From Candidatus Helarchaeota archaeon (lineage in GTDB: Archaea > Asgardarchaeota > Lokiarchaeia > Helarchaeales > JABXJV01): a DNA stretch of 29,686 bases. Location of the stretch: NCBI GenBank assembly GCA_013375355.1, contig JABXJV010000587.1:1-29686 (forward strand), in the 5' to 3' direction. Shown in pieces: positions 1,914 to 29,686 of this stretch. The notes under the pieces are model-generated. The model was not told the origin of the DNA. It worked only from the letters and a program-made list of their open reading frames with translations, and made no database searches. Each line of letters opens with the position of its first letter. The stretch's first letter is position 1. The position numbers and the translations under genes are program-made.

Positions 1914-1919
1914 TAAATC

Positions 1920-1962: not shown

Positions 1963-2067
1963 ATTTGCTTCAAAAAATGAAATTTTAATAAAGTATTCTT
2001 TAATTAGATATAAATTATTATTAAATGATTCCTTGTTAAGTACGTACCAGTCATTTTTAGTATAAAG

Positions 2068-8375: not shown

Positions 8376-9566
8376 TTATTTATTTTTGGCCATTTTTTTA
8401 TATAAATTTAAATGATTTTCTACTGACATTTCCAAGTCAAATTTTTGCTTTATAGACTTCTTGCCCTCTCTCCCCATATTTTCTCTTAATTCTTTATCTT
8501 CAATCAGTTTTATTAAAGCATTTGCTAACTCTTCATGATTATTTGGGGGAACTACTAATCCCGTTTTTCCATCTTCAATAGCTTCTGACATTCCTCCAAC
8601 TGCAGAAGTAATAATTGGTTTTTCTAAAGACATAGCCTCATATGCAACTCTTGAGAGTGGCTCTGGCCATACAGAGGGTATACAAACAATATCTGCCGAT
8701 ATATAAAGCCTTCCAATTTTCTTAAAAGGAATCTTTCCTGTAAATTTGACATTCTTTTCAAGATTCAATTTTTGACTCAGTTCTTTTAAATATCTTTCAT
8801 AAGGTCCTTCACCAGCAATAATCAATTCAATTTTACTTATTTGAGAAAGGATCTTTTTCAAAGCTAAGAGTAAAATATGGATACCTTTTGCCTTCTCTAA
8901 TCTACCTAAGTAGAGTAACCTCATTTTTTTGGAAATATCCGCACTCTTAAATTTATTCCCAATTGTTTCTAATTTTTCCCATTTTGGAGGGAAATTATAT
9001 ATGGTAATTAATTTTTCTTCTGGAACTCCGAGTCTAGACATTCTATCTTTAATAAAATCACTTACTGCAATTACTTTGTCACAGTCTTCTTTTAGATTTT
9101 TTAGCAAGATATTATTTCTACTCTTAAGAATCTGGTTTAAAATGAATTTAATAAAAAAATTGTAAGGATGAAGAAGAACTTTAGGCAATGGCTCTCTTAT
9201 GGTAACAACTATGGGTATTTTAAATTTTCTAGCAACTTTAACACTTGCAGGTAGAGCATAAATATTCTGGACATGTATAACATTAGGATAATAATTATTT
9301 TTTTTGAATGCAGTTTCAATATTTTTCTTCAAAAGCATATCCAATACAGGATTTCCAAGTAATATTATCTCTTTAGGTATAGGAACTTTGAAATTAATTG
9401 GAAGAATATCTTTTTCATCTTCTTTTATTGGTTGAGCTGTTAAGATTTTTACTATTACTTTTTTTTTTTCGAGTCCTTTCTTCAACAAATTTGCCCCAAT
9501 CTCTCCACCCCCTAATCGGGTCCAAAATGTTGAAATGAAAGCAACTTTAAATTTATCTTCCATCAT
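8376..9566 (-). CDS. GT4 family glycosyltransferase
   Basis: A complete 396-residue GT4 enzyme. The N-terminal nucleotide-side loop GGGEIGANLLKKGL (19-32) and VIHVQNIYALP (97-106) are typical. The donor domain has LYLGRLEKAKGIHILL (218-233), IIAGEGPYERYL (249-260), KFTGKIPF and SVWPEPLSRVAYEAMSLEKP, with the EX7E pair at E302/E310, then GGMSEAIEDGKTGLVVPPNN. It has no transmembrane segment and should act at the inner membrane face. Two adjacent ATG codons (9564-9566 and 9561-9563) can serve as start. It is the last gene of the long minus-strand cluster, 46 bp after the small membrane protein gene, so it is likely co-transcribed with the genes upstream. It is the most canonical glycosyltransferase in the window. 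Confidence 0.93.
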   Translation of the reverse strand: MMEDKFKVAFISTFWTRLGGGEIGANLLKKGLEKKKVIVKILTAQPIKEDEKDILPINFKVPIPKEIILLGNPVLDMLLKKNIETAFKKNNYYPNVIHVQNIYALPASVKVARKFKIPIVVTIREPLPKVLLHPYNFFIKFILNQILKSRNNILLKNLKEDCDKVIAVSDFIKDRMSRLGVPEEKLITIYNFPPKWEKLETIGNKFKSADISKKMRLLYLGRLEKAKGIHILLLALKKILSQISKIELIIAGEGPYERYLKELSQKLNLEKNVKFTGKIPFKKIGRLYISADIVCIPSVWPEPLSRVAYEAMSLEKPIITSAVGGMSEAIEDGKTGLVVPPNNHEELANALIKLIEDKELRENMGREGKKSIKQKFDLEMSVENHLNLYKKMAKNK

Positions 9567-9612: not shown

Positions 9613-9987
9613 TTATAAATTATTATATTGACGTGAAATTCTATAGTCTTGAATAAAACCAAATAAAGTAATGCCCTGTCCAATGACACAGAGAATAATA
9701 CCAATAAGAAGTAAGGTTGAGATAGCCATTTGATAATTATTATAAGCCGCAGTACAAAATAGAATAAAACATTTTTCAAATGAAAATCCCGCTTTCATAT
9801 AGAAATAATCGCTTACAATATATATTAAAATTATATAATCGTCTATAACACCTCTATATATGAATCTACTTAAAATAATAGAAATAATTCCTGCAATTAC
9901 AACAAATAATCCGATAATGGCTATAACAGACCATTTATTAATTTTATAATATATAGGCTTTTCTTGATCTTTTTTTGAGTATTCCAT
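9613..9987 (-). CDS. Small membrane protein, tandem paralogue B
   Basis: A 124-residue protein of unrecognised family. A charged N-terminus leads to a membrane helix at about 20-41 (VIAIIGLFVVIAGIISIIL). A conserved central stretch follows, IDDYIILIYIVSDYFYMKAG (48-67), then FSFEKCFILFC and a last helix at about 87-113 (ISTLLLIGIILCVIGQGI, ending LFGFI). The preceding gene (10028-10432) aligns along its whole length with shared KW-x-x-I-x-A-I-x-GL, DD-x-x-x-LIYI-x-SDYF and LGFI/FGFI features, so the pair arose by tandem duplication. Forty bases separate the two genes. A role with the neighbouring CotH protein is an inference from context only. Confidence 0.7.
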   Translation of the reverse strand: MEYSKKDQEKPIYYKINKWSVIAIIGLFVVIAGIISIILSRFIYRGVIDDYIILIYIVSDYFYMKAGFSFEKCFILFCTAAYNNYQMAISTLLLIGIILCVIGQGITLFGFIQDYRISRQYNNL

Positions 9988-10027: not shown

Positions 10028-10432
10028 TTAAATTTCGAATTTATCGAGCAGTTCTGACCAATAGTGTTTATTCAATTGGTGAACTCGAATAAAACCCAAG
10101 ATACTTAAAATTTCTCCATTGGCACAAATAATAAGCCCAAAATAAAGCTGTTTTGTCATAATTTCTAAAAAATAATTTGAGGTTAATATACTAAGTACGA
10201 AAAATAATTCTAAAAAAGGATATCCAAATTTAATATTGAAATAATCACTTATTATATATATTAAAAATGCAAAGTCGTCAACATTGGCATTGTAAAGAAT
10301 ATCTCTAGTAAAAATTATAATAAGTCCAATAACTATAATGCCTAAACCAGTAATTGCCAAAATGGCCCATTTCATTGTAATATAATCTTCGCCTCTTTGA
10401 ATTTTTTCTTCTTTTTTAGACATTTTTCTCAT
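10028..10432 (-). CDS. Small membrane protein, tandem paralogue A
   Basis: A 134-residue paralogue of the next gene downstream. Membrane helices lie at about 21-42 (KWAILAITGLGIIVIGLIII) and 95-115. The conserved core is VDDFAFLIYIISDYFNIKFG (51-70), followed by YPFLELFFVLSIL. N- and C-termini are charged and probably cytoplasmic. Start options are M1 or M4 (MSKKEEK). It begins 23 bp after the CotH stop codon and is probably in the same transcript. The D-D and S-D-Y-F residues kept between the two copies suggest a functional site or helix packing, but no known family is recognised. Confidence 0.7.
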   Translation of the reverse strand: MRKMSKKEEKIQRGEDYITMKWAILAITGLGIIVIGLIIIFTRDILYNANVDDFAFLIYIISDYFNIKFGYPFLELFFVLSILTSNYFLEIMTKQLYFGLIICANGEILSILGFIRVHQLNKHYWSELLDKFEI

Positions 10433-10455: not shown

Positions 10456-12069
10456 TTAATGATCATTCTTTTCTTTAAAAATTCTTTTATTATAATTTTT
10501 AGAGTTTATTTTTGGATTGGTTTTTATACTAATATATAATGTGGCTATTCCTGCTATTATTATACTGATTATTAAGATTACAAACCAAGTTATATCATAG
10601 TTTCGTGGAAATAAATATATCAAATTTAATTTTATACGAGTTATAGGCCTCACATCTCCGATTTCACTTATATGATTATCAATAAAGTTAATTCTATCTT
10701 CAAACCAATCTATAAGATTTTCAATTTCACCCCAATAAGTTTTAGGATAATCGGGTGGTGTATTAGGCCATATCCATCTCCCAAGTACAGACCATTTTTG
10801 GAAATTCCGAATTTGAGACTCATTTAATAAAGAAGCCGTGTTATTTATAAGTGAAGTTATATTTTGTATAGAAATTATTCCTGCCCTTAGCTCGTTCCAT
10901 CTATTAGTAACATTATTCACAAAGTTATCATCTTCTAATAATCGACGAAACCAAAATCCTCTATTTCGAAATACCCAATCTTTGATATTATGATCCCCGT
11001 TTCCCATGGCAATATTATAGTCCCAAATAGGACCCATTACGAGCTTACCATTTCTATCTTTATGAAAATATGCACTTACTGTATACGCACCAGGATTTTT
11101 CAATAGCTCAATTAATATAAGATAATCTACAAAGGAGTTAACATCGATGTATTTTGCATACCCCTCGACTGGATCAGTAAAATTAGGTCCATAAAGAGCC
11201 GTTTCAAAATCATTTATATAATTTTGTATCCAGCTCCTCTGATCCGGTCTGTCTTCCATGTCTTCTGCGTTAGGGTATACATAAATTATTCGAGTGCCTC
11301 TATTAGTATAGAAATAACCATCATTAGGATCTAAATTGTCAAATTTTAATATGTATCCTCCAGTAATATCTGGGTACGTAGTATGGGTGCTATTGAGTTC
11401 GGTTATATTAACCCGATATTCATCTCTCTTTATTTTTTCTACGAATAGATAAATTCCTTTGTACTGACCTTCAAGAGCCCCTCCTGAACTATTTATGAAG
11501 AGTTCTACAAATTTTGTTCTAGAAGCATAACAATCTATTTGGTTTGATAAATTATATGCCAGAAAGTTACGCATAAGTGTTTTATCAGAATATGGTCCAT
11601 GTAAAATCCAATCCTCTTCAGCTGGAAAGCCGAGTAAAGGAACATCAATGTCTTCAATTGGGTCATTTTTATTCCTTGTTTCAAAACCGTAATTTTTTTT
11701 GGGGTAAAGCCTTTGTGAAGTATAACCTCTTTTTTCAATACCTATAGTTCCATTGTAATCTGTTATGCCATAATCAACTGGAGAATCTGTAATAAAATTC
11801 CTCTCTGCAGACTCATTATGAATTATTATTATATTTGCAATTATCTTTGGCTCATCCGGTATAGACTGACCATAAGTATTAATTATTATAATCGGAAGAT
11901 TGGAGCTAAAAGGGGTATCTAAGGAAAGTTGTTCTTCAGATATGTAAGGTAAAAAGACGATTGGATTTATTGATTTGGGTTCAAAATTATAAAAAATACC
12001 AAGACCTAATCCAAAGGATCCTAATATAAGAGTAGTAATAATTAATACATACCTTGTATTGTTTTGCAT
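10456..12069 (-). CDS. CotH-kinase family protein, membrane anchored, without VTC
   Basis: A 537-residue CotH-type protein. An N-terminal signal anchor (about 7-27) is followed by a beta-rich domain (57-125, including LPIIIINTYGQSIPDEP) and the CotH atypical kinase fold. Recognisable CotH motifs are DWILHGPYSDKTLMRN (153-168), GIYLFVEKIKRDEYRV (205-220) and HKDRNGKLVMGPIWDYNIAM (336-355), where WDYN is the metal-binding WDxD/N element. A second membrane helix lies at about 493-515, with a short basic cytoplasmic tail. With two membrane segments and several sequons (NSS, NFT, NIT, NES), the kinase domain is predicted to be outside. CotH of Bacillus phosphorylates spore-coat proteins; the substrate here is unknown. 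Residues 55-470 closely match the CotH half of the protein at 18328-20682. Confidence 0.88.
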   Translation of the reverse strand: MQNNTRYVLIITTLILGSFGLGLGIFYNFEPKSINPIVFLPYISEEQLSLDTPFSSNLPIIIINTYGQSIPDEPKIIANIIIIHNESAERNFITDSPVDYGITDYNGTIGIEKRGYTSQRLYPKKNYGFETRNKNDPIEDIDVPLLGFPAEEDWILHGPYSDKTLMRNFLAYNLSNQIDCYASRTKFVELFINSSGGALEGQYKGIYLFVEKIKRDEYRVNITELNSTHTTYPDITGGYILKFDNLDPNDGYFYTNRGTRIIYVYPNAEDMEDRPDQRSWIQNYINDFETALYGPNFTDPVEGYAKYIDVNSFVDYLILIELLKNPGAYTVSAYFHKDRNGKLVMGPIWDYNIAMGNGDHNIKDWVFRNRGFWFRRLLEDDNFVNNVTNRWNELRAGIISIQNITSLINNTASLLNESQIRNFQKWSVLGRWIWPNTPPDYPKTYWGEIENLIDWFEDRINFIDNHISEIGDVRPITRIKLNLIYLFPRNYDITWFVILIISIIIAGIATLYISIKTNPKINSKNYNKRIFKEKNDH

Positions 12070-12102: not shown

Positions 12103-13059
12103 CTATTTCAGATTTGATTTTATATATTTAATATAAATCCTCAAACCACCCTCAAGATTAATCTTAGGAGAATAACCTAATACTTTTTTTGCTTTTTCTA
12201 CATTTGCAAATGTATGATAAACATCCCCTTTAATATCATCTAGAAATAAAATTTTTGATTGACTATTAATAATTCTAATAATTTTTTGAGCTAACTCTAA
12301 AATTGATATTCTATTACCTGCCCCAATATTTAATTCACCTCTTCCTTTCTTCATAGCCAACATATTAGCTTCTATTATATTATCAATGTAAGTAAAATCC
12401 CTTGTCTTTTTTCCATCTCCAAATATCGCAATGTTTGAATTCTGTAATGCTTTATATGTAAAAATCGAAATTGCAAGATCTGGACGCATTTTTGGACCAA
12501 AAACTGTAAAATATCTTAACGAAATATAATCTAATCCGTAAATTTCATAGAAAATTCGTAATAAATGTTCTGCAGCAAGTTTTGAAACTCCATATGGTGA
12601 TAGCGGATTTTTTGGGTGATCTTCATCAAAGGGAAGATAATGAACGGTCCCATATATAGAAGATGAAGATCCAAATATGATTTTTTTTACATTTGAATTT
12701 AAAGCGGCTTGTAATATATGTAAAGTTCCTACAACGTTTACATTATTAGTCTTGATAGGATTTTTTATTGAAAATCTTACACCTGGCTGTGCAGCTTCAT
12801 GAAAAATATATCTTATATTATTTTCATTTATAATTTCTTTTACTAATTTTGTGTCGAGAATATTTCCCTCTTTTAAATGAAAATTTTCTTCTTTCATTAA
12901 ATCAGCGATATTATCTCTTTTTAAATTTGGGTCATAATAGGGGTCAAAATTATCTAGACAATAAACCTCAAATTCTTTTTCAATTAAACGACGACATAAA
13001 TGGCTTCCAATAAAACCAGCGCCACCTGTGACTAAAATTACCTGTTTCATCTCTCTCAT
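12103..13059 (-). CDS. NAD-dependent sugar epimerase, UDP-glucuronate 4-epimerase-like
   Basis: A 318-residue extended short-chain dehydrogenase/reductase. ILVTGGAGFIGSHLC (8-22) is the NAD-binding glycine motif. LDNFDPYYDPNLKRDNI (35-51) is characteristic of the UDP-glucuronate epimerase/CapI subgroup, as is HEAAQPGVRFSIKNP (87-101). The catalytic set is SSSS at 131-134 and Y156-x-x-x-K160 in SPYGVSKLAAEHL. RYFTVFGP and FGDGKKTRDFTYIDNI complete the family signature. It should interconvert a UDP-hexose or hexuronate at C4 to supply the surrounding glycosyltransferases; GalE-like activity is the alternative. The start may be M1 or M4 (MKQVILV). It sits 33 bp before the CotH gene and 47 bp after the propeller gene. 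Confidence 0.9.
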   Translation of the reverse strand: MREMKQVILVTGGAGFIGSHLCRRLIEKEFEVYCLDNFDPYYDPNLKRDNIADLMKEENFHLKEGNILDTKLVKEIINENNIRYIFHEAAQPGVRFSIKNPIKTNNVNVVGTLHILQAALNSNVKKIIFGSSSSIYGTVHYLPFDEDHPKNPLSPYGVSKLAAEHLLRIFYEIYGLDYISLRYFTVFGPKMRPDLAISIFTYKALQNSNIAIFGDGKKTRDFTYIDNIIEANMLAMKKGRGELNIGAGNRISILELAQKIIRIINSQSKILFLDDIKGDVYHTFANVEKAKKVLGYSPKINLEGGLRIYIKYIKSNLK

Positions 13060-14878: not shown

Positions 14879-17173
14879 TCAACTATTAATGTCATTATCA
14901 TTCTTAATAAGAGGTTTAGGGGTTTTAGAGGAAATTTCAGACTCTTTAGGAGGAGTTTTATTAGAGTTTAGTTCTTTAATAATAAAAAATGATAGCATAA
15001 ACACACTAGTCAATACAATTGGAAGTTGTAAAAAATTGGAGTGCATCAATGGTAGTGAATTAATAAAAAATACTAATAGAATCACTATTATTATTGGACG
15101 AAATATTCGAATATAATCTCGAAATGGTGATTCTTCTTCCTTGACTTCCAGATATTTTAATAAATATCTATCCATAAAAAATAATATAATGATAATAGTA
15201 AGAATCAATTCTATCAAATAAATATATTTTAATTGGTTAAGTAGATTAAATAATGCTTCAAAATGAAGAAAAACATAGATGTTAATGTTATCCATCGGTA
15301 TTGATTCTTCTCCAAGATAATTATAATATTGAGTTATTAGATATAAAATATTACAATCCCTTGAAACTTGATTTATTAATATATTTAAGGGAATATTTAT
15401 AATTAATATTCCAATTGCACACCAAAGAGCAACGATAATAATTAGTTGAATTCTTGATATTTGGTCATTTAAGAAATGTTGCTTAAATATTTTAATGCAA
15501 ATAATTATATTAATTATAGTAAAAATGGCAATTAGACTTATCTGAAAGGGAATATTCGAAAATAAACTCGCAAGAACCTTTGAAAATCCACTAAAATATT
15601 CTATTCTCATATGGTGAATTGACGCTGTATATATTGGAAGAAATATTACAAAAAAAGTACTTAATTTATCCCTATTAAATAATAAAAGCAAAAAAGGAAC
15701 TATCCACAAAAAGTATCTTGGCGTAGGCGCCCAGAAAAAGGCTAAAAATATTAAAAGGGTGAAAAATGAAGAAAAAAGTAAGGCATCTTCATTATTTTCT
15801 TTAATCTTATAAAAAATATAATAATTAATGAACGAGAAGGAAAAAATTAATATCATCATTATAGTTTGAATTGTTTGTGGAAATGATGATACGAGGGTGT
15901 TATAATCTCTTTGTAAAGTTAACAACATAGCAGGGTAAAAAAGTAAGGCGAGAATTGAGAATAAAACAAGCCCTTTTTGCCAATCACTTCGTTCTATGTT
16001 TGTATCATATCTTAAAATAATTAATAATATAATACCAGAAATTAATAACCAAATCAATGGGTTTATAATCGGAAAAATAAAGAATAAAACAATTAATGTA
16101 GCATTTAAATTAAATAAAATTATTTTCAAATGTTTTTCTTTTATATTATATGCCATTAAAACATTAACGGTAATCAATACTAGCAAAAATAATATTGAAT
16201 TATCTAGGCGTAATTTAAATCTCTTCGTTAACCCACTGGTAATAACATTTAAGTTAGGTCCTTCAATTATTCTGATAATTGATGCCATAATACTATTTCT
16301 CGCCCCATGGGTACCATGGAATAAGATTGCATGCTCATAAAATCCTCTTATTATTGAAATTAATAAATCTGAAGAATATAATAAAAGAACTCCAGCAAAT
16401 ATAATGACAGGACTTATGAACTTGATTATTTTTATAAAATAATTTTCATTGGGTTTTTTGATTTTGTATAAGTAAATAAGGAATATGGGGTAAAGGAAAA
16501 CGGCATAATATTTATAGGCAATTGCTAGCGTAATAAAACAGCTAGAAAAAATTAGTTGTTCTCTTATTAAGCAATAAAAAGATATTAACATTAGTAGAAC
16601 AACACCAACATCATTGTGGGTGAGCCAAGAAAAATTTATAATGAGAAAAGGCATCAAAATGTATAAGATTGATATTTTATAACGATTTTTGAATTGTAAA
16701 TGGCGAGCGATTAAATAGATTAATACTAAATTACAATAATCAATTAATAGAAAAAAAAATCTTATAGCAAAAAAATCTGCTTTTGTAAGTAATGTAGGGA
16801 CAGCAAGGAATAATGAGAAAATTGGACCGTATCCCAAATTAAAAGCAAAAATAGGAGAGACATTATTTACCATTCTTATAGCCAAATGGTAAATTGCTTC
16901 AAAATCAATATGATAATTCGGCTTTAAAATAAAAGGAAATCGTACCCAAAAAAATAATAAACTTATAAAGTAGAAATTTGTAAGGTGCTGATTTTTTAGA
17001 TCGTTTTTAGAAAAATAATATACAAAATAAGTGAAACTAATTAATGATAACACATATCCATAAAAATATTCAGTATAATATTCAAAAGGAAATAATAAAA
17101 AGTAAATTCCTAGAATGTAGAGTCCAATGAATAACATATTTTTATTTTGTTGAGAAAAGTTAAAACTCCACAT
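14879..17173 (-). CDS. GT-C fold membrane glycosyltransferase (GT87/PMT-like)
   Basis: A 764-residue polytopic protein with a dozen or more hydrophobic helices and a hydrophilic cytoplasmic tail (about 730-764). The first large loop contains NYHIDFEAIYHLAIRM (86-101), where D90 occupies the position of the catalytic acidic residue of GT-C enzymes, then NLGYGPIFSLFLAVP. Further elements of the GT87/ArnT-type core are LTHNDVGVVLLM (184-195) and AIAYKYYAVFLYPI (217-230). Such enzymes use lipid-phosphate sugars and act on the outer face of the membrane. Substrate is unknown; modification of lipid-linked glycan or of exported proteins in this cluster is inferred. It lies 177 bp downstream of the DUF4956 gene and 116 bp upstream of the propeller gene. 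Confidence 0.7.
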   Translation of the reverse strand: MWSFNFSQQNKNMLFIGLYILGIYFLLFPFEYYTEYFYGYVLSLISFTYFVYYFSKNDLKNQHLTNFYFISLLFFWVRFPFILKPNYHIDFEAIYHLAIRMVNNVSPIFAFNLGYGPIFSLFLAVPTLLTKADFFAIRFFFLLIDYCNLVLIYLIARHLQFKNRYKISILYILMPFLIINFSWLTHNDVGVVLLMLISFYCLIREQLIFSSCFITLAIAYKYYAVFLYPIFLIYLYKIKKPNENYFIKIIKFISPVIIFAGVLLLYSSDLLISIIRGFYEHAILFHGTHGARNSIMASIIRIIEGPNLNVITSGLTKRFKLRLDNSILFLLVLITVNVLMAYNIKEKHLKIILFNLNATLIVLFFIFPIINPLIWLLISGIILLIILRYDTNIERSDWQKGLVLFSILALLFYPAMLLTLQRDYNTLVSSFPQTIQTIMMILIFSFSFINYYIFYKIKENNEDALLFSSFFTLLIFLAFFWAPTPRYFLWIVPFLLLLFNRDKLSTFFVIFLPIYTASIHHMRIEYFSGFSKVLASLFSNIPFQISLIAIFTIINIIICIKIFKQHFLNDQISRIQLIIIVALWCAIGILIINIPLNILINQVSRDCNILYLITQYYNYLGEESIPMDNINIYVFLHFEALFNLLNQLKYIYLIELILTIIIILFFMDRYLLKYLEVKEEESPFRDYIRIFRPIIIVILLVFFINSLPLMHSNFLQLPIVLTSVFMLSFFIIKELNSNKTPPKESEISSKTPKPLIKNDNDINS

Positions 17174-17350: not shown

Positions 17351-18226
17351 TTATAAAGTTGATAAATCTCCACTATATGAGATCAGTCTTATCTCTTTGA
17401 TTCCTTTAAGTTGCCTAATTTCTTGGACTAATTCATTTTGTTGTTCATATTTTAATTTGACTTCAATTACTCTTTCTGGATCTTCGTTGGTAGCCCATGT
17501 TGTTGATCTTGGTTTATATCTTTTACAATATTGTTTAAGAATTACAATTACAGGATCTGAATCGGCTTCTATTGACCTTTTCTTTAATTTTAATGAATCC
17601 TTCTTTAATGCTAATGAGTCTTTCTTAAAATCTAATGATTTCTTTTTATCTTCTATTGTATCAATATTATAATCTAAAGAATCTTTACCTAAATTTATAG
17701 AATCCAAAATATTTCTATCAAATTTTAATATTAAAAGATATGGTGTGTCAAATCGTGTTGTTCTTGAGATGATTGCAGTGATGAGTCCGATTAATAATAC
17801 AGAAACTATTGCGAGATAGTAAGCAGATACGCCGCATATAATTCCAGTTGTTATTGTCCAAAACATGAATGCTGTATCTTTAGGTTCTTTCACAGCTGTT
17901 CTAAACCGAACTATTGATAAAGCTCCAACAAGGCCAAGAGAAAGTGCTATACTGCCACTAACAACCATAACTACAGTGCAAGTTATCATCGCACACATCA
18001 TTAGCGTAACATTGAAGTTTTTAGAATAAAGTACCCCACTATAGGTTTTTTTATAAATGATATAAATCATAATTGCAGAAAAAAAGGCGACAGTTAGATT
18101 GAGTATTATCGTTTCTATCATTAATAATGATGTATTGGGCATTATTTGGTTATTTAATATAAAAGCTGATAACAATTCTACAATTAAATTCATTAATATT
18201 TTTTCAAATTGCTGCCCAACGACCAT
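17351..18226 (-). CDS. DUF4956 membrane protein with heptad-repeat insert
   Basis: A 291-residue protein of the DUF4956 family. Four membrane segments lie at about 15-30, 38-58, 72-98 and 120-152. The family signature is LSLGLVGALSIVRFRTAVKE (96-115), continuing PKDTAFMFWTITTGI. A cytoplasmic alpha/beta domain follows: strand YLLILKFD (163-170) and ERVIEVKLKYE to ISYSGDL (251-288). Between its first strand and the rest is an insert of seven 7-residue units (173-221), the last four of KK-x-S-L/I-x-x type. DUF4956 genes commonly sit beside VTC-domain and CotH genes, as here (101 bp after the CotH-VTC gene), so it is probably a partner of the polyphosphate polymerase, perhaps forming the membrane part. 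The biochemical role is not established. Confidence 0.88.
   Translation of the reverse strand: MVVGQQFEKILMNLIVELLSAFILNNQIMPNTSLLMIETIILNLTVAFFSAIMIYIIYKKTYSGVLYSKNFNVTLMMCAMITCTVVMVVSGSIALSLGLVGALSIVRFRTAVKEPKDTAFMFWTITTGIICGVSAYYLAIVSVLLIGLITAIISRTTRFDTPYLLILKFDRNILDSINLGKDSLDYNIDTIEDKKKSLDFKKDSLALKKDSLKLKKRSIEADSDPVIVILKQYCKRYKPRSTTWATNEDPERVIEVKLKYEQQNELVQEIRQLKGIKEIRLISYSGDLSTL
17564..17710 (-). repeat. 21-bp in-frame minisatellite, seven units
   Basis: Seven consecutive 21-bp units in the DUF4956 gene encode ILDSINL, GKDSLDY, NIDTIED, KKKSLDF, KKDSLAL, KKDSLKL and KKRSIEA (in order along the protein: residues 173-179, 180-186, 187-193, 194-200, 201-207, 208-214, 215-221). The three central to C-terminal units are also similar at DNA level; the first and third units are degenerate. 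The register is unbroken. Confidence 0.85.
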
Positions 18227-18327
18227 AATATTGACACTCCTTTCTTATTTTAGAAAAATATTTTTTATCATTTTCTAATCTAATATATTTATAAATGCCA
18301 TTATAAATCTAACAGTTGATATTCAAA

Positions 18328-20682
18328 TTATTCGATTCTTCTTGATTGAGTATATTTACTTATCGCTGATCTAACAAATGTCTTTAATTGAAGTATATTT
18401 TTAATATAATCTGGTAAAAAATGATCATATTTTATTTCTAGTATTATTTTATTATCTTGAAATGAATGATCTCTACAAATTTCTGGATTAAAAAAGTCAA
18501 TCTTTGTTTCTGAATGACCTAACATTTTATCAAATGTAATTCTGATATTATTGATATTATAATAATAAGCAATTCTGCGATAATCTATTTTTGTTTTCGG
18601 AATGTAGTGGAATTTTTTGAATTCGTAAAATATTTTATTTAAAACTTTGTTATTATACTTTAATAACAATTCATAATTTCCTTTTATTATTTCGGCTACA
18701 TCTTCTTGTTTTATTAAAGCTGATTCCTTTACAATTTCATTACTAACTTTATTTTTAATTTCAAATTTTATAATATTTGGATTTAAATCATACATCCTTA
18801 TCCTATATTTCTTTCTCGTTTCTACTCCCGCCAATTTTTCATATAATGCTTTATTTTCTTCATTATCGAAATATACACTTCTTACTAAGTAACCTTTACC
18901 TCCCTTACTATGTGGATCGAGTTTTAATACTTTTGAAAGAACATTTGATAAATATTCATATTCAATATGATTTATATAATATTTTAATTCATAACGCTTT
19001 ACTATAATCGTGTTTTTATCTCTTTCTTCCTTTGAAATTGATCCAAAAAGCTCTCTTATATTGGTCCTTCTTATCTCCAAAAAAACTGCTAAAATTTCTT
19101 TTCTTCCATAAATTACTATTAAAATTAATGGTGTTATTACCATTCCGAGTATTATGATCAAAACCCAAAAACTACCATCAAATGGTGGAATAAACCACAA
19201 TAATTCCGTTGGAGGGGGAGATTTTCTCTTTATTCCATGAATATAATTTATATTGTCATCAATCCATTTAATTCTCCCCTCAAACCAATTTTTGAATCGA
19301 TTAATTTCTTGCTCATATGTCTTAGGAAAAGGAGGTGGGTTTGCCCATATATATCTTCCAAGTATTGGCCACTTTTGGAAATTACGCTCTTTAGATTCAT
19401 TGAGTAATAATGTATAATTATCAATTATTGAGGTTATATTTTGCAAAGAAAATATTCCAGTTCGTAACTCATTCCATCTAGAAATCACCTTATTAGAAAA
19501 GTTATCATCCTCTAATAGTCGTTCAAACCAGAAAGTGCGAGGTCCTAGAACAGTCGCCCAATCTTTGGAATCCCAAGCTTTAAAATCATTCCAAAGTGTG
19601 TAACTATTAAAATTTCCCATAGCTCCATTATAATCCCAAATAGGACCCATCTTCAACTTTCCTCCCCTATCTTTATGCATGTACATACTAGCGCTGAATG
19701 CTTCACCATTTTTAAATAATTCATTTAATATGATATAATCAACAAAAGAGTCAACATCAATATATTTAGCATAACCATCTATGGGATCTGTGAAATTTTG
19801 TCCAGCAAGGGCAGCCTCAAATTCATCCATATAATTTTTTATCCAAGCACTTTGATTTTTTATATCTTCCATCTGATTGCCACTTGGATAGAAATAAAAT
19901 ATTCTTGTTCCTCTATCTGTAGTAAAATATTCATCTCCTGATAGTGGGTTATCGATTTTTAAAATATAACCACCACTGATCTCTGGTTCCATAGTTTCAT
20001 TTTCCAATAATGGAGTAACATTTACCCTAAATTCAGAAACTGTTATTCTCTCCATGAATACATAAACACCTTGATATTGGTCTTCAAGGGAACCTCCCGA
20101 ACAATTTATAAAGAGCTCCACAAACTTTGTTCTGACTGCATATTGACCTATCTGATTGCTAAGATTATAGGCCAAAGGATTACGCATAAGCGTTTTATCT
20201 GAATAAGGTGCATATAAAATCCAATCTGTTTCATTATGAAATCCAAGTAAAGGAACTTCAATGTCTTCTTCTGTATTACTTTTATTTCTAGTTTCAAAAA
20301 GAAATTGGCTCTTAGGATATTTCAGCGAACTTCTACCACGTATTTCGATCCCAATAGTACCATTAAAATCGGGAATGCTATAATTAACAGGTTGATCTGT
20401 AAGAAAATTTCTCCCTGAAGACTCATTATGGATTATTTGAATGTTAGCAATTATCTTTGGCTCGTCAGGTATAGATCTACCATATGTATTGATTACAATA
20501 ATAGGGAGATTAGAACTGAATGGTTTGTCCAGAATAAAAATTGGTTCTTTAGGTATTTGCGACCAAAAAATTATCGGGTTTACTGGATCGGGATGGGATA
20601 AATTAAAGATTCCAATACTTATTCCAAGGCTTCCTAGAGAAACGGAAAAAATAAATATTAGATTAATAAACTTTTTGCCCAT
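18328..20682 (-). CDS. CotH kinase - transmembrane - VTC polyphosphate polymerase fusion
   Basis: A 784-residue fusion. The N-terminal signal anchor is at about 6-27. The CotH region (57-480) has DWILYAPYSDKTLMRNPLAY (153-172), GVYVFMERITVSEFRV and HKDRGGKLKMGPIWDYNGAM (336-355). A transmembrane helix lies at 505-525. The VTC domain (558-784) lines the polymerase tunnel with basic and acidic strands: KRYELKYYI (562-570), LVRSVYFDN (599-607), YRIRMYD (626-632), IIKFEIKNK (637-645), KTKIDYRR (696-703), NIRITFDK (712-719) and ILEIKYDHFLPDYI (747-760). All the expected catalytic strand motifs look intact. VTC domains make polyphosphate from ATP. Predicted topology puts CotH outside (sequons NESS, NCS, NFT, NIT) and VTC inside. 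It heads the ten-gene minus-strand cluster, with DUF4956 next. Confidence 0.92.
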   Translation of the reverse strand: MGKKFINLIFIFSVSLGSLGISIGIFNLSHPDPVNPIIFWSQIPKEPIFILDKPFSSNLPIIVINTYGRSIPDEPKIIANIQIIHNESSGRNFLTDQPVNYSIPDFNGTIGIEIRGRSSLKYPKSQFLFETRNKSNTEEDIEVPLLGFHNETDWILYAPYSDKTLMRNPLAYNLSNQIGQYAVRTKFVELFINCSGGSLEDQYQGVYVFMERITVSEFRVNVTPLLENETMEPEISGGYILKIDNPLSGDEYFTTDRGTRIFYFYPSGNQMEDIKNQSAWIKNYMDEFEAALAGQNFTDPIDGYAKYIDVDSFVDYIILNELFKNGEAFSASMYMHKDRGGKLKMGPIWDYNGAMGNFNSYTLWNDFKAWDSKDWATVLGPRTFWFERLLEDDNFSNKVISRWNELRTGIFSLQNITSIIDNYTLLLNESKERNFQKWPILGRYIWANPPPFPKTYEQEINRFKNWFEGRIKWIDDNINYIHGIKRKSPPPTELLWFIPPFDGSFWVLIIILGMVITPLILIVIYGRKEILAVFLEIRRTNIRELFGSISKEERDKNTIIVKRYELKYYINHIEYEYLSNVLSKVLKLDPHSKGGKGYLVRSVYFDNEENKALYEKLAGVETRKKYRIRMYDLNPNIIKFEIKNKVSNEIVKESALIKQEDVAEIIKGNYELLLKYNNKVLNKIFYEFKKFHYIPKTKIDYRRIAYYYNINNIRITFDKMLGHSETKIDFFNPEICRDHSFQDNKIILEIKYDHFLPDYIKNILQLKTFVRSAISKYTQSRRIE

Positions 20683-22098: not shown

Positions 22099-22569
22099 TT
22101 ATAAATTTGCCAAAGAATTAATTACTTTTCCAATAATAATCAAAGCTGGTGGATTTATTCCTTGATCCTTCGTTTTATTTATTACAGTATCAAGGGTTGC
22201 TGTTAAAAATTTTTGATCTGGGAAATAACCATGCTCTATTATGGAAATGGGTGTATTTTTAGGTAAGCCACCTTCGAGTAAAGATTTCACAATATCTGAA
22301 AGATTTCTTAATCCCATCAATATTACTAGAGTGTCTACTGCTTTAGCTAATAATTCAAAACTTACTTTCTTTTCTTCTTTGGTGGGATCTTCATGTCCAG
22401 TTACAATCCCAATCGAAGAAGAATACTTTCGATGTGTCAATGGAATATTAAATTGTATTGGAATTGAAAGCGCACTTGAAATTCCTGGAATAATTTCAAA
22501 TTCAATTTTATTTTTTATAAGAAATTCTAATTCCTTTGTACCTCTCCTAAAAATTAATAATAAATTAAT
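22099..22569 (-). pseudogene. Uroporphyrinogen-III C-methyltransferase, N-terminally truncated
   Basis: The frame between a stop at 22570-22572 and the stop at 22099 encodes about 156 residues that match the C-terminal part of SUMT (uroporphyrinogen-III C-methyltransferase, siroheme/cobalamin pathway). Key stretches are FEIIPGISSALSIP, PLTHRKYSSSIGIVTGHED, LAKAVDTLVILMGLRNLSDI and NPPALIIIGKVINSL. A full enzyme has about 240-260 residues; missing are the N-terminal glycine-rich SAM loop (GxGPGDPxL) and most of the first domain. Alignment begins at about LLLIFRRGTKELEF, where the family has the GDPFxFGRGxEE loop. Upstream DNA on this strand shows no remaining N-terminal motif in any frame. A start at the TTG 22438-22440 is possible but would remove still more. 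I treat it as a relic. Confidence 0.8.
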
Positions 22570-23919: not shown

Positions 23920-24063
23920 ATGCCTATAGATCAAATTTATAAAGATAATTTTGAAAAGGATTTGGAAGATAATCTGTCAACAGTAAATACATATTTGGGA
24001 ATTAATTTAGGAAAATATTTTAAAATTAAGTCAAAGGAGAAAATCCATAATGGGAAAAAATAA
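23920..24063 (+). CDS. Small ORF, 47 residues, abutting in frame
   Basis: It starts MPIDQIYKDNFEKDLEDNL and continues STVNTYLGINLGKYFKIK. The protein is charged and soluble-looking, with no recognised family. The ATG follows the stop of the preceding ORF without a gap and in the same frame. The last 14 bases overlap the start of the giant NHL gene in another frame. Read through the TAA, the two ORFs give 83 residues with uniform character, which favours one ancestral gene with a nonsense change; coupled mini-genes are the alternative. Confidence 0.35.
   Translation: MPIDQIYKDNFEKDLEDNLSTVNTYLGINLGKYFKIKSKEKIHNGKK
24034..24039 (+). promoter_or_regulatory. Ribosome binding site of the giant NHL-repeat gene
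   Basis: AAGGAG ends ten bases before the ATG at 24050 and is complementary to the 16S rRNA tail. It supports this ATG, whose N-terminus is a good signal peptide, as the start of the open frame running to the window edge. Confidence 0.6.
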
Positions 24064-27000
24064 TAGAAAATTTAGTATATTTATAATTATAACATTAATA
24101 ATTTTGCCAAATTATACCTCATTTCTTAAATTAAATCAAACAAACCTGATAAATAAAGAATTTTTAAATTTTGCCTTGGTATTAAATACTTTACAAACCA
24201 AATTACCTAACAACTATTTACCAATTCCAGAAGATCCCTCAGAAGTTAGTATTTATACGGCAAATGGAGAATCAGATGATTCCGCTATATTTAATTTGAC
24301 TGTTAAAAATTTTACTAACTTTCATAAATCAAGTCAAAATGTTACTTATGGATATGGAAACTTAAATTTGACAGACAATTCTGGAATATTTCAAGGTAAA
24401 TATAATTTCAAAAATGATAATCTAGGTGGAAATCCAAATGGATGGACGGTTGATGAAAGTTCACAAGCATTTATAAACATAACTTCAGAAATTGATGGGC
24501 ACAAAAAAGTTGTTGATTTTTATGATAATGATGCTAACGCATATACATATATGAACCAATTATTTACAAATCAACAAAATGGAACTATCGAGTATTACGT
24601 TAGAGGTAACAAAGCGGATAGCTTTATAACTATTTCCCTTCGCGAATCTGCTAGTGCAAGAACTTTATCGGGGATATGTTATTTTGATGGCAATATGAAT
24701 TTTTATCATCGTTTCGATAATCTAAGCTACAAAAGTTTGCAAGTAATAAACCCTAATACATGGTATCATATTAGAATGGAGTTCGATACAACCTCTGATA
24801 CCTCAAAATATTGGATTGATGGCGAATTTAAAGGAGAATATGAAAACTTCGCTTCTACTACTAATATGAACGAAATTCACATTAATACGGGAACAAGTGC
24901 TGGAGAAGAACCATTCAATATCACTTTAGACGCTCTTGATTATTCATGGGAAAATAATTATTATGAAAATAGAAATTTAAATTTAGAAAGTAATTCTACT
25001 AGTGGTTATTACATTTCTAAAGATATTCCACTATTTTATAATTCAACAATATATAGTTATTCAAAGATACTTGGAGTTAATATAACTTCAGAAAACCAAC
25101 CAGGAATAAATACGACCTTAGAATATTATGACTTTAACACAGATACTTGGTTAAATTTATCTGATTATATAGGAACTACTCAAAATTTATTTAAATTTAG
25201 AGTCAATTTTAATACAACCTGTTATTCAAATGCATTTTTATATAATCTAACCCTTCATTATAACACAACACCTTATACCATTGATAGACCAATCTACCTT
25301 AACCAACCTCGTGATATAGCAATTGATGATAAAGAGTATATATATGTGGCTGATACTCTCCATAACAAAATAAAAAAGTTTGATTCGGATGGAAATTTTA
25401 TTTTAGAATGGGGAACGTCTGGTTCTAAGAAGGGGCAATTTAATCATCCTATAGCTTTGGACATCAGCGCTGAATGGACGGGCTCTGAATATAAAAATTA
25501 TATCTATGTTGCTGACTATTATAATAATCGTATACAAAAATTTGACGAAAATGGAATATTTGTTCTAGAATGGGGTAGTTATGGTGGTCCAGATGAAGGA
25601 GCAAAATTTAAACTACCAATAGGAATTACAATTTATTCTCCAAGAGTTGAATCTAATGTATCTCCAACAATTTATGTAGCTGATTCAGGAAATAAACAGA
25701 TACAGAAGTTTTTCAAGAATGGTGACTTTGATAACCTTTGGCAAGATACTGATTTGAGTTATAATTTTAAAATTGCTGTGAACAAAACTAATCATATCTA
25801 TGTGGCGGACGTAGAAAGAGATGAAATCCGAACTTATGACAGATTTGGTAATTTATATTATGTATGGGGTAAGACTGGAGATGGTGATGGCGAATTTTCG
25901 AAGCCTTCAGATATTGCATTTGATAATGAAGGAAAAGTTCATGTCTTAGATTCATATAATAATAGAATACAAAAATTCAATTTCTCAGGTGAATGTATCA
26001 ATGAAAGCACTTGGGGGAGTCTAGGGACTGGTGAAAAAGAATTTAATTTTCCTTCGGGACTACTTATTGATAATGAGACTAATTATTACGTTGTTGACAC
26101 ATATAATTATAGAATTCAAAAATTCAATTCTACAACCGATTTCTTATGGGAAATAGGAAAAATTATCCCTGAGCTAGAAATTACTACGCAAACATATAAA
26201 ACAGAATGGGGCAATTATGAAAATAACACTTTAATTAGTCCTCGAGGTATAGCCATCGATTCCGAGGGCAATCAATATGTTTGCGATTCTGGAAATAATA
26301 CTATTATTAAATATGATAAATGGGGACACTTTTTAAAGAAATGGGGTAATGGAAACCCCTCCTCTGAATTTATATTTAATAACCCTAGAGGAATTGCAAT
26401 TGATTCTGATGGTTATATTTATGTGGCAAATTCTGGCAATAATAGCGTAGTAATATTTACAGATTCAGCCATTACAGACTCATTTTATAAATGGGGCAAT
26501 GGGACAGATGAAACTTTTAATTTCCCAGAAGATCTTGAAGTTTTTACAAATTCAAATAACGAAACAGATCTTTATGTTGTTGATAAATATAATCAAAGAG
26601 TTGTAAAATTTCGAATTCTAAAAGATGTAAATCGACAATATGAAGGATATGGATTACCTTCTTATTGGTATAACTATGAAATGGATGATGAAATTATTTC
26701 ATTTAAGGAACCTTACGGAATTACTATAAATACCAAAGGTCATGTATATATTTCAGATAGAAATGATACAAGTGTTATAAAATTCGATTCTGATGGTAAG
26801 TTTCTCCTAAAAGTTGGTGGAAATGAATCCGATATATTTGATAATCCTACCGGATTAGGTTCAGATTTAAGTAATAATATATATATTGTTGATACAAATT
26901 CAACAACAGGCAATCATACTATAATAATTACCACAAACTCTTTTTGCTATATTAAGGAAATTACCATAAATTATACGTTGCCTTTAGATGTAGAAGTTGA

Positions 27001-29686
27001 TAATTTTAATAATGTTCTAATTGCAGCAAATGATTCAATTTTAAAATATACATATTTAGACGATTTTCCGCCTTTGCTTTCAATATTAAATCCTACTTTA
27101 TCTCAAGGCTATCTTAATAGCACAAAAACTCCTGTATTTGATGAAACAGGTAATATTTACGTTTTGGAAGGCAATAAAGTCTATAAATTCAGCAATTATG
27201 GAGATTTTATTAAAACTTTTGATACTGGTATACCAGGAAATGGAACTGAAATAAGGATTAAAAATTTTGATAATGGAGAATCATACTTATACCATGCTTT
27301 GCGAAATGATACTGGTCACAATTGGGTTACGAAATTTTTCTTAGATGGAACAATTTCAGAACAAATTGAAATATCGGGTCACTTAAATCTATCGAGTATT
27401 GCGATTAACGATAATGGTTCTTTATATCATTTAACTGAATCGGGAATTACAAAACATATAGTAATGGAAAATATCTACCATGCAATTTACAACTTTAAAG
27501 ATGTAGCAAATAATTCTAATCATGAAGAATGGGATAATGAGTCCACTGGAGGTTGGAGTTATACAAAAGTTATTGATGAGTTAGGTAATCATTCAAAAGT
27601 TTATCGTCTCCATGATGGGGGTGATGCTAGTTGGGCGAAAATATCCAATAATTTTACAGAAATAACCGCTGGAACTGTAGAATTTTATATCCGCTCCACG
27701 GATGTCACAAGACGTAATATTATATATATTAATGATGGAGCAGGAGAGGAAGGAATTACTCTTGCACTAGTGGCTGATTCTTTACAATATAGAACAGAAG
27801 GTTCATGGCATTCCGTATGTCCTGTTAGTGACAATACTTGGTATCATCTAAAAGTAGTTTTTAATATTACAAGTAATGAGTGGTATTTATATTTAAATGG
27901 AGTTTGTTATAAACATGATATCTCAAATATTACAATGATCTTTCGTAAGACACCTGAAGCTATGGATCGTATTATTTTTAGAACTGATGAGGACCAAAGT
28001 ATTTACGATTTTTGGATTGATGCTGTTGATTACAGTTGGGCAGATCTATATTATGAAGGTAGAAATACATATTTTGAAACTAATTCCACTGGTGAGCTAT
28101 ATAATGCAAGCGGGGAAATTTCGAGTGAAGGAGGAAAAAATCAAAATGAAATAGATTCAGCAGGTAAAATATTTTATCTTTCACATTCAAAAAATGAAAT
28201 ATTAAAAATTGATTGGGATTCACAAGAAATCCTAGAAAATTGGACTATAGATTCTAATTTAACTGAACACCAATTCTTCATTGATAATGATGATAATGTT
28301 TATCTACTTAATAAATTGAATCAAGAGGCAGAAATTTTTATAATTTCGAATGAAAGTCAAAAATTAAATAGATATGAATTTAGTTACAATGAATCTGAAG
28401 AAATCAGCATTTCAACTGACGATTTTTCTCGTTTATATCTTTTTAGAAATCCTAATGGTAATGAAACTATATTGTATAAATATGGAGTTCAAGAAATTAC
28501 TCCTGAACTTACTTTTCAAATAACAGACTACTATAATTGGACTGATATTGCTATAAATTCTACAGGGTTTATCTTTGCGTTAGATTCGAAAGAAAATGAT
28601 ATTGAAATCTATAATCCAACAGGATATAAAGTGGGAACTGTAAATGGATCACAACTAGATTCACCTTCCCAAATCTGTATAGATCGAAATAATAGTTTAA
28701 TAGTAATAGATTCTCAAAATATGGTGAAAATTCTTGGAAATTCATCAAATACATTCAATACAACAATTAATGAAACGTCATTAGAATTTATTGACCTTTA
28801 CGTATCGGATAGAATCTTTATATTAGCCGAGGATCAAGATGGCAATTTCTCGGTTAGAGCTTATACATATAATTTAACTTGTGCAGAACTAAATTATTCA
28901 ACCCAAAACCTAACCTTAACAGAACCGACCAGTTTCTGTGTAATTACTGAGAACAATACTGATCGAATTCTAGTTGTAGACTTTTTAGAGAATGAAATTA
29001 AAGAATTCAATGAAACTGGAGACCTTAAAAAACATTGGGGAAAATTTGGATCAATGGCTGGGGAATTTATTGGTCCTCTCAAGATTGCAAATAATTCCTA
29101 TGGTGATCTATTTGTGATTGATATCGGAAATCTACGAATTCAAAAATTTGATTCTGAAGGTAATTTTAAATCTGAATGGGGGAACTTTGATATGACTTTG
29201 GCTCAAAATATACTCGAATCTAAAATTAATGTTTTAATAAATAGATTTAATGATATCGAGCTTTATATTCTGGATTCTTTGGGAATCAACTTATTTCAAT
29301 ATGAATATAGTGAAAAGGAATCAGCCTCTAGCGATAGAACTTTTGTAAAAGAAAAAATCATTGATTCAGGAGCTACTTATGGAGTTCCTCAAATATATGC
29401 CATAATTTACGATCCACCAGGAAGAGATAGTTATGGTTATATTGAGAGAGGTAGTTCTTGGACTATAACTAGAACTTTCGAAGAAAATTTGAATGTGAAA
29501 ATGGGTCATCAAAATATAGTTGAAATTGCTGGAAACGGATTTGAAAGTGATAATAATATTGAGGAAGTTTTTTTAGATGGAGGTAAAATATCAATTAAGG
29601 TCGAAACCAATGAAAGAATAACTTCATCACAATCTAATATTCAAAAATATATTGGTCCGGGTCATGGAGATACTATATGGGGTGAA
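24050..29686 (+). CDS. Giant secreted NHL-repeat / ConA-like surface protein (runs off right edge)
   Basis: An uninterrupted frame of 1879 codons to the window end; no stop is reached. Residues 7-20 are a signal peptide or anchor (FSIFIIITLIILP). A ConA/LamG-like domain (about 120-305) has GTIEYYVRG, NTWYHIRMEFD and LDALDYSW. From about 413, some 14 NHL-type units follow, such as DIAIDDKEYIYVAD, NNRIQKFDENG, GIAIDSEGNQYVCDSGNN and GIAIDSDGYIYVANSGNN, enough for about two propellers. A second ConA-like domain (about 1143-1330) repeats the first with GTVEFYIRS, NTWYHLKVVFN and IDAVDYSW. About eight more NHL units follow, ending with LFVIDIGNLRIQKFDSEG. The last part (from about 1760) has IIYDPPGRDSYGYIERGSSW and starts a different domain. 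Very many N-x-S/T sequons are present. Adhesion or surface-layer function is inferred. Confidence 0.9.
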   Translation, partial: MGKNNRKFSIFIIITLIILPNYTSFLKLNQTNLINKEFLNFALVLNTLQTKLPNNYLPIPEDPSEVSIYTANGESDDSAIFNLTVKNFTNFHKSSQNVTYGYGNLNLTDNSGIFQGKYNFKNDNLGGNPNGWTVDESSQAFINITSEIDGHKKVVDFYDNDANAYTYMNQLFTNQQNGTIEYYVRGNKADSFITISLRESASARTLSGICYFDGNMNFYHRFDNLSYKSLQVINPNTWYHIRMEFDTTSDTSKYWIDGEFKGEYENFASTTNMNEIHINTGTSAGEEPFNITLDALDYSWENNYYENRNLNLESNSTSGYYISKDIPLFYNSTIYSYSKILGVNITSENQPGINTTLEYYDFNTDTWLNLSDYIGTTQNLFKFRVNFNTTCYSNAFLYNLTLHYNTTPYTIDRPIYLNQPRDIAIDDKEYIYVADTLHNKIKKFDSDGNFILEWGTSGSKKGQFNHPIALDISAEWTGSEYKNYIYVADYYNNRIQKFDENGIFVLEWGSYGGPDEGAKFKLPIGITIYSPRVESNVSPTIYVADSGNKQIQKFFKNGDFDNLWQDTDLSYNFKIAVNKTNHIYVADVERDEIRTYDRFGNLYYVWGKTGDGDGEFSKPSDIAFDNEGKVHVLDSYNNRIQKFNFSGECINESTWGSLGTGEKEFNFPSGLLIDNETNYYVVDTYNYRIQKFNSTTDFLWEIGKIIPELEITTQTYKTEWGNYENNTLISPRGIAIDSEGNQYVCDSGNNTIIKYDKWGHFLKKWGNGNPSSEFIFNNPRGIAIDSDGYIYVANSGNNSVVIFTDSAITDSFYKWGNGTDETFNFPEDLEVFTNSNNETDLYVVDKYNQRVVKFRILKDVNRQYEGYGLPSYWYNYEMDDEIISFKEPYGITINTKGHVYISDRNDTSVIKFDSDGKFLLKVGGNESDIFDNPTGLGSDLSNNIYIVDTNSTTGNHTIIITTNSFCYIKEITINYTLPLDVEVDNFNNVLIAANDSILKYTYLDDFPPLLSILNPTLSQGYLNSTKTPVFDETGNIYVLEGNKVYKFSNYGDFIKTFDTGIPGNGTEIRIKNFDNGESYLYHALRNDTGHNWVTKFFLDGTISEQIEISGHLNLSSIAINDNGSLYHLTESGITKHIVMENIYHAIYNFKDVANNSNHEEWDNESTGGWSYTKVIDELGNHSKVYRLHDGGDASWAKISNNFTEITAGTVEFYIRSTDVTRRNIIYINDGAGEEGITLALVADSLQYRTEGSWHSVCPVSDNTWYHLKVVFNITSNEWYLYLNGVCYKHDISNITMIFRKTPEAMDRIIFRTDEDQSIYDFWIDAVDYSWADLYYEGRNTYFETNSTGELYNASGEISSEGGKNQNEIDSAGKIFYLSHSKNEILKIDWDSQEILENWTIDSNLTEHQFFIDNDDNVYLLNKLNQEAEIFIISNESQKLNRYEFSYNESEEISISTDDFSRLYLFRNPNGNETILYKYGVQEITPELTFQITDYYNWTDIAINSTGFIFALDSKENDIEIYNPTGYKVGTVNGSQLDSPSQICIDRNNSLIVIDSQNMVKILGNSSNTFNTTINETSLEFIDLYVSDRIFILAEDQDGNFSVRAYTYNLTCAELNYSTQNLTLTEPTSFCVITENNTDRILVVDFLENEIKEFNETGDLKKHWGKFGSMAGEFIGPLKIANNSYGDLFVIDIGNLRIQKFDSEGNFKSEWGNFDMTLAQNILESKINVLINRFNDIELYILDSLGINLFQYEYSEKESASSDRTFVKEKIIDSGATYGVPQIYAIIYDPPGRDSYGYIERGSSWTITRTFEENLNVKMGHQNIVEIAGNGFESDNNIEEVFLDGGKISIKVETNERITSSQSNIQKYIGPGHGDTIWGE

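Follow-up and report, generated by a model that had tools for sequence, protein, structure and literature searches.

A stretch of 29,686 nucleotides (nt) from Candidatus Helarchaeota archaeon (contig JABXJV010000587.1, assembly GCA_013375355.1; hereafter the window) encodes P0001, a single protein that joins a CotH kinase-like domain, one transmembrane (TM) helix and a VTC polyphosphate polymerase domain, and beside it the DUF4956 protein P0002 (Table 1). A module of separate CotH, VTC and DUF4956 genes was already known; the CotH–VTC fusion is a new form of that module. We consider it reasonably probable that the two genes specify membrane-tethered polyphosphate synthesis, with DUF4956 as a near-obligate partner of the polymerase and an outward-facing CotH fold that binds or modifies a surface polymer.

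Architecture of the fusion protein

The original prediction, made from the sequence alone, placed CotH, a single membrane helix at residues 505–525 and VTC in one polypeptide, and this was borne out. One open reading frame (ORF) carries Pfam matches to CotH (PF08757, residues 112–474, 207 bits against a cut-off of 23.8) and VTC (PF09359, residues 562–781, 120 bits against a cut-off of 23), and the TM helix between them spans residues 504–526 in the structure model and 506–524 by hydropathy. The CotH half has the CotH kinase fold as well as the profile score, and the VTC half has the triphosphate tunnel fold of Vtc4. Matches to the PDB were obtained from alignments rather than from the single P0001 sequence, which gave none at E ≤ 1. 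The neighbouring gene was also called correctly: P0002 follows the VTC end of P0001 immediately, on the same strand after a gap of 101 nt, and matches DUF4956 (PF16316) over residues 52–175 (59.4 bits against a Pfam cut-off of 30.6).

That an assembly chimaera or a frame error joined two genes is extremely improbable. The CotH–VTC junction is present in two different organisms, since it is shared by P0006 and P0007. P0006, on a 5.1-kb contig from another source, starts inside CotH and differs from P0001 at one residue in the part seen, with an identical junction. P0007, on an 8.3-kb contig, is 76% identical to P0001 and breaks off inside VTC, at the equivalent of P0001 residue 636. The latter is recorded as 'CotH kinase family protein, partial [Promethearchaeota archaeon]', from a metagenome-assembled genome (MAG), and refutes a chimaera unless the same error occurred in that MAG. 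A further argument against it is the asymmetry of glycosylation sequons across the junction, described below. Absence of the fusion from related genomes had been named at the outset as the sign of an artefact; P0007 supplies the fusion in a second organism. Among the matches listed, P0007 (Promethearchaeota) and P0011 (Hodarchaeota) were the closest named relatives of P0001.

The fusion is nevertheless rare in the sampled sequences, as an artefact would be. It occurred in 2 of the 26 proteins found with the VTC half as query, and in 2 among the 120 matches listed, of 5306, with the whole of P0001. No fused CotH–VTC frame was found in 80 VTC loci, nor among the VTC matches over the cut-off, which came from 102 of 1124 genomes (longest open frame 354 amino acids (aa)). 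These genomes were even draws from four phyla plus all 34 of a fifth, and Asgard archaea were covered for this count through the database proteins. VTC matches below the cut-off in G374, G408, G443 and G1075, three of them in frames of 473–1057 aa, were dropped, as our own profiles for VTC, CotH and DUF4956 matched nothing there. With P0001 as query, 36 pattern-matching stretches in genome_contigs and 4 in viral_contigs included none that encodes a relative. A literature search for a CotH–VTC fusion returned only papers on unfused neighbours or single families.

The topology signals all favour CotH outside and VTC inside the cell, as originally proposed. No Lys or Arg is present in the 15 residues before the TM helix, and four are present in the 15 after it. 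The CotH half (residues 27–504) has 16 N-x-S/T sequons against a shuffled mean of 4.5, a number reached in 0 of 2000 shuffles, which bears out the early remark on sequons in this half; the VTC half (residues 527–784) has none, against a shuffled mean of 1.6. The sister fusion P0007 has 16 (against 3.8) in its CotH part and none in its VTC part. The excess was also seen in P0010, a second CotH protein of the window (12 against 5.5), and in P0011 (13 against 4.5), and there was none in seven control CotH proteins (P0015, P0016, P0018, P0031, P0043, P0064 from Poribacteria, and P0073). Within the window, four predicted cytosolic enzymes (699–1913, 2068–2856, 8376–9566 and 12103–13059) have no sequons and two glycosyltransferases have one each; two long surface proteins have a clear excess (26 against 10.7, and 67 against 31). 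The multi-pass flippase at 3242–4747 shows some excess too (5 against 1.8), so a sequon excess marks exposed segments in general and not secreted domains alone. Among CotH frames of at least 300 aa from other genomes, 55 of 67 show an N-terminal hydrophobic segment, and none of the 71 stand-alone VTC frames left from the 80 loci after ORF trimming has a TM segment. The sequon counts give independent support for CotH outside and VTC inside.

The VTC half retains its tunnel residues. P0001 R627, R629 and E749 align with R264, R266 and E426 of yeast Vtc4, and K567, K643, K652, R703, R714 and K776 align with K200, K281, K294, R361, R373 and K458, which we take to be further tunnel residues of Vtc4. 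The match in the region of E426 and K458 is a weak second alignment piece. Over the 35 VTC sequences of alignment A6, which has 16 invariant columns, K567, R627, R629, K643, K652, R703, R714 and E749 are invariant and K776 is nearly so. A6 covers the domain only and replaced a first alignment, A1, whose PDB matches included Huntingtin and FAM155A and were taken as artefacts of long disordered N-termini. The yeast triple mutant R264A/R266A/E426N is catalytically impaired (PMC9911596, available text). The lack of these residues had been proposed as grounds for abandoning the original interpretation; on alignment they are present, and the VTC domain of P0001 is a predicted polyphosphate polymerase that would use ATP. 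All three conditions named at the outset as refuting (a cytoplasmic CotH, no fusion in relatives, missing tunnel residues) were thus decided computationally in favour of the original prediction. Of the 'intact motifs' first claimed, those of VTC stand (all nine tunnel residues sought were found), but those of CotH do not, column 327 being Glu.

Inactive forms of B. subtilis CotH are D228Q and D251A, according to the available text of PMC7821199. Our CotH alignment has two Asp columns 23 residues apart, matching the 228/251 spacing; the equivalence to Asp228 was drawn from the alignment and this spacing, with no B. subtilis sequence in the alignment. Asp occupies the second column in 40 of 40 rows (Asp350 in P0001) and the first in 36 of 40, the exceptions, all from these archaea, being P0001 and P0006 (Glu), P0010 (Gly) and P0011 (Ala). 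P0007 keeps Asp at both columns, and around position 327 reads NGDGFRAS where P0001 reads NGEAFSAS. For CotH beside VTC in other genomes, 57 pieces were aligned after 14 of 71 had been dropped as short; 6 of the 57 were gapped and 51 readable, and by alignment columns 50 of these 51 have the first Asp. A regular expression for the D-23-WD spacing was rejected as unreliable on diverged CotH (13/49), with WD occurring elsewhere by chance and YD present in many CotH. The CotH half of P0001 thus keeps the fold while departing from the standard catalytic loop, and it is probably a weak kinase or pseudokinase that would bind a surface glycan or glycoprotein. Because neither CotH copy of the window has the catalytic Asp (E327 in P0001, Gly in P0010), the proposed coupling to surface phosphorylation is weakened for this organism.

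DUF4956 and the wider module

The suggestion that DUF4956 is the membrane partner of VTC is supported by near-perfect co-occurrence. DUF4956 adjoins VTC in 140 of 145 distinct loci; the pairs lie on the same strand in 144 of 144 cases measured, with a median gap of 4 nt and VTC first in 140, and in one protein (P0143) the two are fused. Among 348 Bacillota genomes, VTC and DUF4956 were found in an identical set of 53; among 344 archaeal genomes, 28 have both, and for each family one further genome has only a fragment. VTC is accompanied by DUF4956 in 53/53 Bacillota and 28/29 archaeal genomes.

The original prediction had CotH, VTC and DUF4956 genes recurring as neighbours in bacteria, and this is supported: about 69 of 80 VTC–DUF4956 loci have a CotH gene in the flank that was searched. 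The first profile, made from close relatives, found 48 and missed diverged CotH; an iterated profile, which may have drifted, found 67, and L044 and L073, lost to ORF trimming, brought the count to 69. In the 48 first-profile loci, CotH lies directly upstream of VTC in 33, downstream in 13 and in neither place in 2; 11 of the 13 downstream copies have a C-terminal TM helix. The loci came from a scan of genome_contigs (187 stretches, 149 relatives, best 80 relatives used) and are biased to close and clostridial-type VTC because A1 supplied the scan patterns; the Pfam-based genome draws are the less biased test. The trio has been reported beside pel genes (PMC7112168), and the available text of a 2025 paper reports no case of the arrangement outside Pel loci (PMC12345266). 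Contrary to that statement, 45 of 64 genomes chosen for VTC, DUF4956 and a nearby CotH, some of them incomplete MAGs, had no PelG match, so the trio is apparently not tied to Pel, nor confined to Pel genomes.

By sequence comparison, DUF4956 is MgtC-like but not assignable to the MgtC family itself. P0002 scores 12.6 bits against MgtC (PF02308), below the Pfam cut-off of 31.4, and profile–profile comparison of the two families (hhalign) gave a probability of 96.6 and E = 7e-10 over 138 columns, including the C-terminal domain. Residues K59, R107, R109 and K113 of DUF4956 are 0.99–1.0 conserved among 108–109 rows. They were not counted as a polyphosphate path, because R and K also occupy two of those places in the MgtC profile, and DUF4956 as a polyphosphate passage is unproven.

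Other genes were observed beside the module. In two Sulfurovum loci (L003, 11431–12075; L015, 11454–12095) the gene directly after DUF4956 specifies an inorganic pyrophosphatase (PF00719) whose N terminus is signal-like. Its frame begins on the final base of the last codon of DUF4956, and the enzyme hints at pyrophosphate or polyphosphate outside the cytoplasm. A purple acid phosphatase domain with an N-terminal hydrophobic segment is encoded at L059 (8431–9681), on the opposite strand beside a VTC–DUF4956–CotH set, with similar genes of the same cluster at L016, L027, L042, L053 and L063 (only L059 was domain-scanned). This Paenibacillus-type phosphatase was given little weight because of its opposite strand and narrow range (six loci). 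At L001, in a Nanohalarchaeota MAG whose VTC is the most similar to that of the window (52%), a 920-aa frame without a Pfam match (1230–3989) overlaps the start of the VTC gene and is possibly another outward partner replacing CotH.

Proposed mechanism and competing explanations

In the mechanism that we favour, the N terminus of P0001 would lie at the membrane and its CotH-fold domain outside, probably glycosylated. The single helix would act as a tether, and the cytosolic VTC domain would polymerise the gamma-phosphate of ATP into polyphosphate. DUF4956, as an MgtC-like membrane protein, would most likely receive the chain at the membrane, either as a channel or as a chain-gripping regulator. 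Yeast VTC couples synthesis to translocation via basic-lined helices (PMC9911596, available text); the core of the P0001 helix lacks basic residues, which makes a tether the likelier role and leaves DUF4956 as the site of any passage. The widespread VTC–DUF4956 module is usually accompanied by an exported CotH with a gene of its own. In P0001, CotH is fused to VTC, a covalent and topologically fixed link that would hold polymerase and surface domain at 1:1 across one membrane. The CotH half would bind a surface glycan or glycoprotein; the sister P0007 has both catalytic Asp. A literature search found no established membrane partner of prokaryotic VTC polymerases, and our survey predicts that DUF4956 stands in the same relation to prokaryotic VTC as the Vtc membrane helices do to the yeast polymerase.

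Several observations weigh against this mechanism. The same search found no biochemistry of a prokaryotic VTC–DUF4956 pair. By our own profile, 5 of 145 VTC loci lack DUF4956, although Pfam puts it beside VTC in two of them (L097 and L099, genomes G325 and G039), for L138 there is a DUF4956-like frame (L176) at a distance of about 2.7 kb, and L102 is a 1.9-kb piece; L148 has no such explanation. Our VTC profile also missed L098, which Pfam found. The P0002 model is modest (predicted local distance difference test score 74, predicted template modelling score 0.58), and its fold-search lists were filled by ferredoxin-like domains aligned to the C-terminal part, leaving the membrane part without matches and with no MgtC in the lists. 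In the available text of PMC12345266, MgtC is described as a regulator and no channel role is given for the fold. The only genetic test of such a trio that we found comes from Streptococcus intermedius. Strains deleted there for DUF4956 or CotH aggregated less than half as much in sputum medium, and their Pel levels shifted in opposite directions; a strain deleted for the polymerase SIR_1593 still aggregated and was not named as altered (PMC12345266, available text). This speaks against a simple chain from VTC via DUF4956 to CotH, and the three proteins need not share a single pathway.

The original prediction went further and proposed exported polyphosphate as the phosphate donor: VTC would make polyphosphate, DUF4956 would export it, and CotH would use it instead of ATP to phosphorylate surface molecules. 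ATP is expected to be scarce outside the cell, where CotH sits, and the phosphate source of kinases outside the cytosol is, to our knowledge, an open problem. The idea also fits the presence of CotH in about 69/80 loci, the catalytic Asp in 50/51 CotH near VTC and in P0007, and the pyrophosphatase or phosphatase genes with signal-like N termini beside some loci. Against it, we know of no CotH that uses polyphosphate, and neither window copy has the catalytic Asp. It is further weakened because the S. intermedius VTC deletion still aggregated and is not reported, in the available text, to reproduce the loss seen on CotH or DUF4956 deletion (PMC12345266). Taken together, we judge it improbable. 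A fuller version, to which we give little credence, makes the VTC–DUF4956 pair the prokaryotic counterpart of the yeast VTC synthase-translocase, feeding polyphosphate outside via an MgtC-fold protein; the Asgard fusion, as the most compact form of this system, would deliver the chain directly to CotH, which would phosphorylate surface glycoproteins from polyphosphate in relatives with both Asp intact (such as P0007) and only hold or hand over the chain in this species.

Signalling might instead run inwards, with the CotH fold as a surface ligand sensor and DUF4956 as an MgtC/ACT-type regulator that tunes cytosolic polyphosphate or phosphate use without export. Loss of the catalytic Asp suits such a binding role, DUF4956 combines an MgtC-like membrane part with a ferredoxin/ACT-like end, and deletions of DUF4956 and CotH alter the amount of Pel (PMC12345266, available text). 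However, the constancy with which VTC is found with a membrane DUF4956 (53/53 and 28/29 genomes) is a better fit to a membrane-coupled polymer, and the pyrophosphatase of two loci has a signal-like N terminus; we regard inward signalling as unlikely. We think it very unlikely that the fusion merely anchors two independent activities with no dependence between CotH and VTC. About 11 of 80 VTC–DUF4956 loci do lack CotH, and the available text reports no aggregation loss for the VTC deletion (PMC12345266), but a second organism retains the fusion, with 76% identity, and CotH is directly upstream of VTC in 33/48 loci.

The surface locus and the closest known systems

The fusion gene and P0002 belong to a co-directional run from 20682 to 8376 (Table 1). 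With a GT87/PMT-like protein, a surface protein, an epimerase, a second CotH and a glycosyltransferase in this run, and a flippase in addition, these genes make up a surface-glycan locus. The second CotH, P0010, is 59% identical to the P0001 CotH half (BLASTP). Because P0010 and 11/13 downstream CotH of other genomes have a C-terminal TM anchor, the fusion may go back to an anchored CotH whose cytosolic tail acquired VTC. Two small proteins stand between this second CotH and the glycosyltransferase. No match to PelG or DUF2194, and no pel gene in the same locus as the trio, was found among the window ORFs scanned. On the plus strand, a 1879-aa open frame (24050–29686) continues past the window end; it has NHL repeats, a domain like LamG, weak matches to sialidase-like carbohydrate-binding modules and 67 sequons against 31 expected, and is a putative giant surface glycoprotein. 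A 113-aa frame at 22099–22440 (minus strand) covers no more than the last third of a gene of the tetrapyrrole methylase type (profile positions 141–211 of 212).

Table 1. Features of the fusion gene, its DUF4956 neighbour and the surrounding locus (window coordinates)
Feature	Position	Strand	Basis
CotH-TM-VTC fusion gene P0001, 784 aa	18328..20682	minus	single ORF
N-terminal hydrophobic segment (signal anchor or signal peptide), residues 8-26	20605..20661	minus	hydropathy; helix 2-26 in model
CotH-fold domain, residues 58-482, predicted outward-facing	19237..20511	minus	16 sequons in residues 27-504
Codon 327, GAA (Glu), at catalytic Asp position (B. subtilis CotH Asp228)	19702..19704	minus	alignment
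Codon 350, GAT (Asp), conserved, counterpart of B. subtilis CotH Asp251	19633..19635	minus	alignment
TM helix, residues 504-526	19105..19173	minus	model and hydropathy; hydrophobic core without basic residue
VTC polyphosphate polymerase tunnel domain (predicted), residues 562-781, tunnel residues conserved	18340..18999	minus	Pfam, fold, alignment
DUF4956 gene P0002, 291 aa; MgtC-like membrane domain and C-terminal ferredoxin-like (ACT-like) domain	17351..18226	minus	Pfam, model, profiles
Multi-pass protein, PMT_2 / GT87 matches below cut-off	14879..17173	minus	Pfam
Surface protein, 26 sequons (10.7 expected), C-terminal hydrophobic segment	13107..14762	minus	sequence reading
NDP-sugar epimerase/dehydratase	12103..13059	minus	Pfam
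Second CotH gene P0010, without VTC; TM anchor at C terminus; Gly at catalytic Asp position	10456..12069	minus	Pfam, alignment, hydropathy
Two small hydrophobic-segment proteins, 124 and 134 aa, alike, no Pfam match	9613-9987 and 10028-10432	minus	
GT4-type glycosyltransferase, end of co-directional run	8376..9566	minus	Pfam
MOP-type flippase, multi-pass	3242-4747		

The nearest relatives of this system are the accessory genes of Gram-positive pel loci (PMC7112168; SIR_1592–1594 of S. intermedius, PMC12345266), in which, according to the available texts, the same three families are adjacent, CotH is predicted to be secreted and SIR_1592 has an MgtC-like membrane part and an ACT domain. There the three genes are separate, whereas the archaeal CotH and VTC are one protein, with the catalytic Asp substituted and no pel gene among the window ORFs scanned. 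DUF4956 resembles the MgtC/SapB proteins (PF02308), whose profile it matches over 138 columns including the C-terminal domain; P0002 differs in falling below the Pfam cut-off, and the conserved RFRTAxKDP motif and the partnership with VTC are traits of DUF4956. With the yeast VTC complex (Vtc4 with Vtc1/Vtc3; PMC9911596, available text), P0001 shares the tunnel fold, the catalytic residues and a membrane-held polymerase. Unlike the yeast enzyme, it has no SPX domain before the tunnel domain and no TM segment after it (Pfam finds only CotH and VTC, the latter reaching residue 781 of 784); its single TM helix precedes the tunnel domain, with a core free of basic residues, and DUF4956 serves as the multi-pass partner. 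Compared with the Bacillus CotH spore-coat kinase (5jd9/5jda; PMC7821199, available text), the P0001 equivalent of Asp228 is Glu, and its CotH domain is sequon-rich, membrane-tethered and fused to VTC.

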